Source: Archangium gephyra | GTDB taxonomy: Bacteria; Myxococcota; Myxococcia; Myxococcales; Myxococcaceae | DNA: 64,000 bases | Reading direction: 5' to 3' | Assembly (NCBI RefSeq): GCF_001027285.1 | Contig: NZ_CP011509.1 | Location: forward strand, 10,998,501-11,062,500 | Shown: one piece after another, positions 17,720 through 64,000 of the stretch | How the letters are laid out: every line of letters begins with the position of its first letter | Numbering within the stretch: position 1 is the first letter of the stretch | Notes under the pieces: model-generated | The model's database searches: none | The model's input: the letters and a program-made list of their open reading frames with translations, nothing else | Told to the model about the DNA's origin: nothing | Position numbers and translations under genes: made by a program

Positions 17720-18157
17720 CTAGAGTTGCTGCAGGGCCTGCGACGGGAACGCCCGGGCATCCACCTTCGGATACCAGGCCATCACCCGCCCGTCCGGCCC
17801 GATGAGGACGCCCACCCGCCGCGCATTGGGCGCGCTCGCGTCGTCACAGGCCCCGTAGGCGAGCCCCATCCTCCTGTCCGTGTCGCACAACAGGGGAAAG
17901 TTGAAGCTGAACTTCTCCGCGAATGCCTTGTTCTCCTCCGGCGTGTCGAAGCTGACTCCCAGGATGACCGCGTTCTTCTCCTCGTACTGCCTGCTCTGGT
18001 CGCGGAACCCGCAACCCTGGGCCGTTCAACCCGGGGTGTCCGCCTTGGGGTAGAACCACAGCACCACCGTCTTCCCCTGGTAGTCCGACAGCCGGTGCGT
18101 CCTGCCGGTGTGATCGCGCACCGTGAAGTCCGGTGCCACGTCTCCTGCCTTCAGCAT
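17720..18157 (-). CDS. Bcp/PrxQ-type peroxiredoxin, predicted selenoprotein (TGA = Sec44)
   Basis: The frame opens at ATG 18157 (ribosome site AGAGGAGG) with [20 protein letters not shown] and continues through VVLWFYPKADTPG, a textbook PrxQ/Bcp thioredoxin fold. Codon 44 (18028-18026) is TGA at the peroxidatic-Cys position of the TPGCT motif. The same frame continues TAQGCGFRDQ, keeping the resolving Cys (Cys49) of the C-x4-C PrxQ pair, and ends normally at TAG 17722-17720. Read through, the protein is 145 residues, slightly short but complete in fold. A SECIS-like hairpin follows the TGA. I infer a thiol/selenol peroxidase reducing H2O2 or organic peroxides. A standard annotation would split or lose this gene. 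Confidence 0.82.
17998..18016 (-). promoter_or_regulatory. SECIS-like hairpin in the PrxQ-type gene
   Basis: In the mRNA, GGUUGCGG pairs with CCGCGACC (eight pairs, one G-U) around GUU. The stem starts nine bases after the UGA and the apical loop is about 18 bases from it, inside the distance range reported for bacterial SECIS elements. The loop flank carries the expected G residues. The structure was deduced by eye. Confidence 0.6.
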
Positions 18158-42487: not shown

Positions 42488-43072
42488 CTACTTCTTGGCG
42501 TCCGGGCCCTTGCCCGCGTCCGGGCTCTTGCCCGTGTCCGTGGCCTTGCCGGCTTCCTTCACCGCCGCGTCTGCATCCGCCTTCGGCTTGCGGAGCGGAC
42601 AGGACACGATCGCCCCGTTCGGATCGATGGCGTCCTTGCCGGACTCCACCTTGAGCACCTTGCGGTCCTCGCCAATCACGAACGTGTAGCGGTTCGCCAG
42701 CTTCAACACCGGCGTCTTCACGTCATAGAGGTTCGTCAGCTTCGCGTCCGGATCCGGGATGAACGGGAACTGCGCCTTCAACGACTCCTTGAACTCCGCC
42801 AACGTCTTCTTGTCATCGGTACTGACGGCCAGGACCTGGCCGTGGAGCTTCTCGACGTCCGCGTAACGGTCGCGATACGCCGAAAGCTCGCGGGTTCAAC
42901 CACCTGTGAAGGCTTTGGGGAAGAAGGCCAGGATGACCGGGCCCTGCTTCACCATCTCCGACAGCGTGTACGACTTGCCGGCGGTGTCCTCCACCGTGAA
43001 GTCCGGCGCGACGTCCCCGGCCTGGGGGGTGGCTCCCGCGAGGAAGCCCGCTACGAGCGTGGGTATGAGCAT
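42488..43072 (-). CDS. Peroxiredoxin-like protein, predicted selenoprotein (TGA = Sec59)
   Basis: The frame opens at ATG 43072 with a signal-like hydrophobic start ([14 protein letters not shown]), then [20 protein letters not shown], and [13 protein letters not shown], a thioredoxin-fold peroxiredoxin. Codon 59 (42898-42896) is TGA exactly where FTGGCT has its peroxidatic Cys. The frame goes on with [15 protein letters not shown] through [20 protein letters not shown] to TAG at 42490-42488, 194 residues in all. The C-terminus is a repetitive Lys/Asp/Gly/Pro tail ([16 protein letters not shown]). A SECIS-like hairpin follows the TGA. It lies 45 bases downstream of the SsnA-like gene, probably in one operon, with a small AACGGC/GCCGTT hairpin between them. 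Confidence 0.82.
42858..42883 (-). promoter_or_regulatory. SECIS-like hairpin in the second peroxiredoxin gene
   Basis: In the mRNA UCgGCGUAuCG pairs with CGuUACGCgGA around the loop CGAC: eight- to nine-pair stem with one G-G and one U-U mismatch, the latter just below the apical loop. It begins 13 bases after UGA with the loop about 25 bases from it, within the range seen for bacterial SECIS elements. Deduced by eye. Confidence 0.55.
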
Positions 43073-43117: not shown

Positions 43118-44425
43118 CTACTTCTCGCTCATGCGGGCCCACACCGCCGCGGCGGCCTCGCGCGCCTGCTCCGCCACCACCGAGGGGTTCACCGACAGGG
43201 GCCGGCGCGCCCATACCCGCCACACGCCGTCCACCATCACCGACTCGACGTGGCGCGAGCCCAGGCCGAACACCACGTGCCAGGCCAGGTTCTCCGCCGT
43301 CAGCGGGGTGGCCGGCTGGTAGTCCATGAGGAGCAGGTCCGCCACCGCCCCCTCGCGCATCTGCCCCACCTGCAGCCCGAAGGCCTGCGAGGCCAGGCGC
43401 TGCCCGTTGGCCAGGTAGCGCAGCACGTCGATGGGCTGTCCCGCATCACGCGAGCGCAGCCACGCCGCCTGGGCCTCGGCGAACATGTCCGCGCTCACAC
43501 TGTCCGCGCCCAGCGTGGCCCGGTGGCCGAACTTCAGCGCCGGCGCGTAGCCCACCTCGGCCTCCATGTTCGAGCGCGGCGTGTGCGCCAGCCATGCGCC
43601 CGTGGGCAGCAGCTGCGCCAGCTCGGGCCACGCCAGGTGCCCCACGTGCGCCAGCAGCGTCTGCGGCGACAGCAGCCCGCCATCCACCAGCCGCATCACC
43701 GGCGAGGAGCCATAACGCTCCACCGACAGCTTCTCGTCCAGCGGATCCTCCGCCAGCGGCACGTGCAGCCCCGCGCCGGTGCTCTTCACGGCCTCGGCGA
43801 TGCCCTCCAGGGCCTCCTTGCTCACGGTGAAGAGCGGGGCCGCGCCCACCTGCCCCCGGAGCCGCCCGCGCGCCTTGCGCGTGAAGGCCACCGTCTCCTC
43901 CAGGCCCTCCTCGCGCCCCAGCGCCCCGCGCCGGTCCGTCACCGCGTAGGCGAGCACCCCGCGCAGGCCCACCTCGTGCAGCCCTCGGCCCACCCGCAGC
44001 AGCGCGCCCTGGACGGCCTTGGGCGAGGAGTGCAGATCGAAGAGCGAGGTGGTGCCACACTGGAGGGCCTCGAGGCCCCCGGCGGTCGCGGCCACCTGCA
44101 CCGCGTCCAGATCCAGCGCGTCCTCGTAGCGCCAGCGCACCTTCTCGAGCAGCTCCTCGTAGCCCTCCAGCTTGGGCCGGGGCATGCCGCGCCCGAGGCT
44201 CGCGTAGAGACGCTGGTGCGCGCTCACCAGGCCCGGGAAGACGAGCTTGCCCGAGAGCGCGATGACCTCGTCATCCGGGGCGGCCGGCAGATCCGGGCCC
44301 CGGGCCACGATGCGCTCGCCCTCGATGCGCAGATCCACCCGCTCGACACACGCGGGTTCGAGCTCGACGACGATGCCACCTTTCAGGAGCGTACCCACCC
44401 GTCCCTCCGGTTTGTCCGAGACCAT
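43118..44425 (-). CDS. SsnA-like amidohydrolase with altered metal ligands
   Basis: A 435-residue amidohydrolase-superfamily protein that follows SsnA from end to end: [14 protein letters not shown] (about 69), [23 protein letters not shown] (about 220), [35 protein letters not shown] (about 305), and [20 protein letters not shown] near the end. SsnA is named for a putative role in selenium metabolism, known from gene context. The usual HxH is HQR here and the later HxH is HVP, so two metal ligands are lost while the Asp and one His remain. It may bind rather than hydrolyse its ligand. It is the upstream neighbour of a predicted selenoprotein. Confidence 0.78.

Positions 44426-59548: not shown

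Positions 59549-64000
<4,452 letters not shown>

Follow-up and report, generated by a model that had tools for sequence, protein, structure and literature searches.

We report a gene of the soil bacterium Archangium gephyra that very probably encodes a selenocysteine-containing peroxiredoxin, in which the UGA at codon 59 is read as selenocysteine (Sec). The gene lies in the 64,000-nucleotide stretch of DNA analysed here (the window; contig NZ_CP011509.1), and its features are listed in Table 1. The reading of UGA as Sec, proposed in an earlier note on this DNA, is supported by (i) four Sec genes in the source genome, (ii) a TGA or Cys codon at the aligned position of 114 out of 114 homologous loci, and (iii) a downstream hairpin that contrasts between TGA and Cys forms of the gene. 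From these observations, we infer the insertion of Sec itself. Gene callers that treat UGA as a stop would trim the gene to 58 residues, as happened in the open reading frame listing for the window, and such an enzyme is thus easily missed.

Table 1. Features of the putative Sec-peroxiredoxin gene and its surroundings, in window positions.
Feature	Position	Strand	Remarks
Putative Sec-peroxiredoxin gene	42488..43072	minus	194 codons + TAG
In-frame TGA, codon 59	42896..42898	minus	aligns with the peroxidatic Cys of PxxxTxxC
Thr56 of the PxxxTxx(U/C) motif	42905..42907	minus	T in 116, S in 1 of 117 aligned homologues
Arg128, nearly invariant	42689..42691	minus	R in 116/117 aligned homologues
Cys158, candidate resolving cysteine	42599..42601	minus	C in 114/117 aligned homologues
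SECIS-like hairpin	42861..42880	minus	columns 19-38 from the T of TGA; kept in most TGA homologues
Longer competing/extending stem	42845..42889	minus	predicted minimum-energy fold in the source genome
SsnA-like amidohydrolase	43118..44425	minus	directly upstream, 45-bp gap
PrxQ/BCP-type peroxiredoxin, second TGA gene	17720..18157	minus	TGA 18026-18028 (codon 44), Cys at +5

As the earlier note had described, the frame is intact on both sides of a single in-frame TGA, whose assigned position and codon number agree with the sequence. Reading the minus strand from 43072 to 42488 departs from translation table 11 at one step only, U59 from TGA. The ATG at 43072 is the sole ATG, GTG or TTG of the frame past the TAG of the upstream gene, which lies 15 codons earlier. 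With Cys substituted for U, residues 19-140 of the product, and hence both flanks of the TGA, match Pfam AhpC-TSA (PF00578) with 106.6 bits against a cut-off of 26; the product also matches 11 NCBIfam families, each below its cut-off (best, 65.5 of 140). Both strands of the whole window were also scanned for in-frame TGAs with gene-like codon usage on both flanks. Four TGAs passed thresholds of our own choosing: codon 59 ranks first (0.45 and 0.43 on its two flanks), and the TGA of the PrxQ-type gene (18028) third. The other two are at 59551 and 5103; the former seems to sit where one gene ends and another starts.

An AlphaFold model of the product (mean pLDDT 86.0) shows a predicted peroxiredoxin fold. 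Its top PDB match is 5epf, BcpB of Mycobacterium tuberculosis (TM 0.85 by target); BcpB and Bcp1 come first in the match order, with Bcp4 and AhpE entries next. The protein starts with a hydrophobic stretch of ~15 residues, of which the first 10 are modelled poorly. Peroxiredoxins are recognized by a PxxxTxx(C/U) motif and a conserved Arg, and the gene has both: the Pro of the motif, P52, is kept in 108 of 117 aligned homologues, and Arg128 is presumably the active-site arginine of peroxiredoxins. Five residues past Sec59 (+5), where the PrxQ of the window carries its second Cys, the protein has Ser (T, S, K or A in 109/117 homologues). This makes Cys158—the protein's only Cys besides Sec59—the candidate for the resolving residue.

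The homologues were collected from 145 genomes of the order, in which 111 genomes yielded 114 loci at E<=1e-30 (here, G-numbers denote genomes, with G000 the A. gephyra source genome, and L-numbers loci). Bacterial selenoprotein genes are recognized by an in-frame UGA where homologues have Cys, and codon 59 is TGA at 53 of these loci, TGC at 57, TGT at 4, and nothing else at any. The TGA form occurs in 52 genomes, A. gephyra included. Relatives that read FTGG[Cys]T, as the earlier note had stated, are seen in, for example, L021, L035 and L042. G044 and G047 each carry one TGA copy and one Cys copy; G085 carries two TGA copies of the gene (L112, L131). Outside the order, 195 genomes of the phylum gave six further loci at E<=1e-25 (TGA 4, TGC 2). 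Three weaker loci, taken for their listed TGA (TGA 2, TGC 1), are left out of the 114-locus counts and bring the set to the 117 homologues used above.

Past the TGA, the next 99 codons differ from those of G044 (4/0/20 at positions 1/2/3), G047, G046 and G121 chiefly at third positions; the differences from G043 (4/0/6) and G045 (2/0/4) are too few to judge.

The machinery for Sec is present in the source genome, a single contig of 12,489,432 bases. Joint presence of SelA, SelB, SelD and tRNA-Sec is a further criterion for a selenoprotein, and all four were found: tRNA-Sec (73.2 bits, cut-off 47; ARAGORN anticodon tca), SelA (576, cut-off 267.9), SelB (327.3, cut-off 242.25) and SelD (378.4, cut-off 125). 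A genome devoid of Sec machinery, which the earlier note had named as fatal to its reading, is thus not what we see. The selD gene (L018) itself contains one in-frame TGA in the context CAG[TGA]AAK, in agreement with the UxxK motif that PMC13188914 gives for SelD selenoproteins; selD is probably a third selenoprotein gene.

Across all 117 loci, genomes with a tRNA-Sec over the cut-off account for 47 TGA and 59 Cys loci, and genomes without one for 8 TGA and 3 Cys loci (11 genomes, all still under the cut-off when the tRNA-Sec search was repeated without the stricter filters). Among these 11, SelA is over its cut-off in 7/8 TGA genomes and 0/3 Cys genomes; the TGA genome G124 (87% complete, 900 contigs) gave no SelA match. 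The tRNA-Sec is presumably absent from the TGA drafts through missing sequence. The sole 100% complete genome of the 11, G076 (2 contigs), has TGC at codon 59. It also holds a 23-bit SelA-like fragment (C1:572732-572881), possibly a selA remnant.

A hairpin of the kind that recodes UGA follows the codon in most TGA forms. In its conserved version it has 7 bp (columns 19-25 with 32-38) and a six-base loop, 22 nt after the UGA. Among the 43 distinct TGA rows of the alignment, which also includes 54 Cys rows, 27 have the loop GGGACC. Run on all 43 TGA rows, RNAalifold returned no structure, and it returned none on the 54 Cys rows either. Six divergent rows (L154, L155, L157, L158, L160, L161) were dropped after that result, and the remaining 37 TGA rows gave exactly the conserved hairpin, at -11.2 kcal/mol. 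The outcome on the full 43 rows suggests that the distant TGA rows use other hairpins, or none such. Hairpin cells are paired in 97.7% of cases in the 37 TGA rows, 90.0% in all 43, and 62.2% in the 54 Cys rows. When one strand is slid by 1-3 columns, pairing in the 37 TGA rows reaches at most 42.9%.

The peptide encoded here, AYRDRYA, tends to form a palindrome on its own, and so synonymous codons were resampled as a control. TGA rows with YRDRY have a mean of 6.87 pairs against 5.65 expected, with all 7 pairs in 27/31 rows, while Cys rows with YRDRY have 5.10 against 4.97, with all 7 pairs in 4/21. The rows being akin, these figures express a contrast rather than a probability. Strict covariation is thin: among the 37 rows, both sides change at one pair only, from A-U to U-A, in three loci of a single genus (L132, L150, L151) and together with amino-acid changes. 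One such pair was also reached in 137 of 500 shuffles, and further pair types in the 37 rows were not above shuffles (479 of 500).

The limits given for bacterial SECIS elements (bSECIS) in PMC13188914 are a loop of 3-9 nt carrying G in its first two places, a stem of 4-16 bp, a distance of 16-37 nt from the UGA, and an energy <= -7.5 kcal/mol. As we coded them, they accommodate 40/43 TGA rows and 18/54 Cys rows. Five TGA homologues of one family (f2; L154, L155, L157, L158, L160) are without the GGGACC hairpin, and two of them, L155 and L158, fall outside the limits. Searching Rfam with the whole window at gathering thresholds, and with positions 42780-42960 at E<=5, returned no match to a SECIS family.

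The hairpin of the source genome itself is among the weakest of the TGA forms. The mismatched stem-loop with a CGAC loop that the earlier note had pointed out does exist (5 pairs, then a U.U mismatch, then 2 pairs and the loop, -7.6 kcal/mol), but it is the conserved element in weakened form. In the aligned register (-6.2 kcal/mol), 6 of the 7 conserved pairs remain, against all 7 in G044. When synonymous codons are resampled, 59% of draws reach as many pairs. Against the published -7.5 kcal/mol, the CGAC hairpin falls just inside the bSECIS limits and is borderline. Over the 57 nt, the lowest energy is predicted not for this stem-loop but for the longer stem of Table 1 (-24.9 kcal/mol). An alternative bSECIS fit at -15.7 kcal/mol is formal, in that the closing pair of a stabler -18.1 kcal/mol fold must open; the -18.1 kcal/mol stem in turn breaks the loop rule, with a 7-nt loop that lacks G at its first two positions.

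Archangium supplies the gene's nearest named relatives, two of which, the A. lansinium and A. violaceum records (G043 and G045), differ in the state of codon 59. G043 has TGT and G045 TGA; the codon and the next 54 nt are identical save for the codon's third base, and the two differ at 15 of 474 positions compared. A quick maximum-likelihood tree of 114 rows (unrooted, column 59 masked, L160-L162 left out, many forks weakly supported) calls for a minimum of 11 U/C changes. In this tree, G043 groups with six TGA rows (support 83), which makes Sec-to-Cys the simpler direction. By our reading of the table's column order, a 2006 census gives five Cys-to-Sec and no Sec-to-Cys events for peroxiredoxins (PMC1794560). 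We lean slightly towards the view that myxobacterial peroxiredoxins exchange Sec and Cys often, including a one-base, third-position reversion from Sec to Cys with the recoding region still present (G043 versus G045). If so, gain and loss of selenium use could be observed at a distance of one base, and the decayed hairpins of this group would represent the stage preceding or following the codon change. The family offers many natural Sec/Cys pairs among bacteria equipped with Sec machinery, and with them it becomes directly testable why Sec is kept or dropped.

Among other explanations of the TGA, the codon could be a chance nonsense mutation in a former Cys peroxiredoxin, leaving a pseudogene, or a sequencing error; a Cys form in the close relative G043 and a weakened hairpin in the source genome are both compatible with that. 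However, with 52 genomes carrying TGA at this codon, sequencing error is untenable, and neither a decaying gene nor an error fits with the lack of any codon other than TGA, TGC or TGT among 114 loci, the third-position bias of changes past the TGA, or the gene-like codon usage on both flanks. We give this explanation next to no probability. It is also highly improbable that a near-cognate tRNA reads the UGA as some other residue, with a short and a long product. While the weak source-genome hairpin could mean little Sec insertion, the genome has a complete Sec gene set, the codon is exchanged only with Cys codons, and the hairpin is tied to the TGA state; moreover, G076, which is complete and has neither tRNA-Sec nor SelA over the cut-off, carries TGC.

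Harder to dismiss, if still unlikely, is that the gene is a relic: the hairpin would have decayed in the group of G000, G045 and G043, with Sec insertion failing and a mainly truncated product. G000 and G045 do retain only 6 of 7 pairs, and G043, whose 57 nt otherwise match those of G045, is already a Cys form. Set against this, the frame and active-site residues past the TGA are kept, and the CGAC form still satisfies the published limits, narrowly, in G000, but misses them in G045 (-7.2 kcal/mol).

Returning to a working Sec-peroxiredoxin, the gene would be expressed as follows. SelB, bound to the hairpin just downstream, would bring Sec-tRNA(Sec) to the UGA at codon 59, with the apical loop of the hairpin following the UGA after the 22-nt spacing. 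Sec would be inserted at position 59, and translation would continue to the TAG. In the enzyme, Sec59 would replace the peroxidatic Cys of PxxxTxxC and reduce a hydroperoxide; the oxidised Sec59 would then probably be resolved by Cys158 or an outside thiol.

The surroundings of the gene include a second peroxiredoxin with a TGA, of PrxQ type, which is a conserved neighbour. The earlier note had called the two TGA genes unrelated; this does not hold, as both belong to PF00578 and share 37% identity across 129 aligned columns (E 7e-22, single comparison). The PrxQ-type gene likewise has its TGA at the peroxidatic position, but differs from the gene under study in having a Cys at +5 of its Sec codon and a hairpin of its own. 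It was found in 41 of 142 genomes (E<=1e-40). Among the best 30 of these 41 loci, 8 have TGA at the codon concerned and 22 have TGC; of the remaining 11 loci, 10 have one TGA listed somewhere in the locus and one has none. The window's own family accounts for 32 of the 41 genomes. In 28 of these 32, both genes lie on one contig and the same strand, with PrxQ downstream and about 7-36 kb away, and in 4 they lie on different contigs. Within the best 30 genomes, both genes are Sec forms in 7 and both Cys forms in 20; the gene under study alone is a Sec form in 2 (G083, G114), and PrxQ alone in 1 (G043).

Directly upstream, the product of the SsnA-like gene scores 312.2 bits against 'putative selenium metabolism protein SsnA', for which the cut-off is 455.5. 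This amidohydrolase is upstream in 28/30 loci examined, beside Sec and Cys forms alike. Given the sub-threshold score and the adjoining Cys forms, we did not adopt a selenium-specific role for it.

In the open-licence PMC literature we found no paper on selenocysteine or selenoproteins in myxobacteria or Myxococcota, although the 2006 census lists Anaeromyxobacter; a search there for peroxiredoxin with Myxococc gave a general redox review only. Anaeromyxobacter dehalogenans, likewise a myxobacterium, has peroxiredoxins of the same family name (compared here by name, not as orthologues), and differs in being anaerobic where Archangium is aerobic. The 2006 census, which lists A. dehalogenans as anaerobic, gives it three Sec-Prx (PMC1794560).

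Sec-Prx with a TxxU motif are described as an established selenoprotein family (PMC13188914, PMC9312934, PMC2398784), defined by PF00578/COG1225 and TxxU and with PrxU of Eubacterium acidaminophilum as a named example (PMC13188914, PMC9312934); one count gives 91 Sec-Prx in 78 organisms (PMC5029168). The gene under study resembles Sec-Prx and PrxU in its AhpC/TSA domain, in the Sec codon at the peroxidatic place of PxxxTxxU, and in the UGA with a downstream hairpin. It differs in having Ser rather than Cys at +5 and a conserved Cys158, and reaches 42.0 bits against NCBIfam PrxU (NF040737), well under the cut-off of 270. The nearest solved sequences and folds are those of PrxQ/BCP proteins (5epf BcpB, 3drn Bcp1), from which it is set apart by the Sec codon at the peroxidatic place, the missing Cys at +5 and the conserved Cys158; with the PrxQ/BCP equivalogs NF006960 and NF053650 it scores 65.5 and 56.6 bits (cut-offs 140 and 260). 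Sec at the peroxidatic site is already known, and relatives of this gene have switched between Sec and Cys several times. Given an established Sec-Prx family, and a census that listed Anaeromyxobacter in 2006, we file the A. gephyra gene in that known family, as an addition to it.
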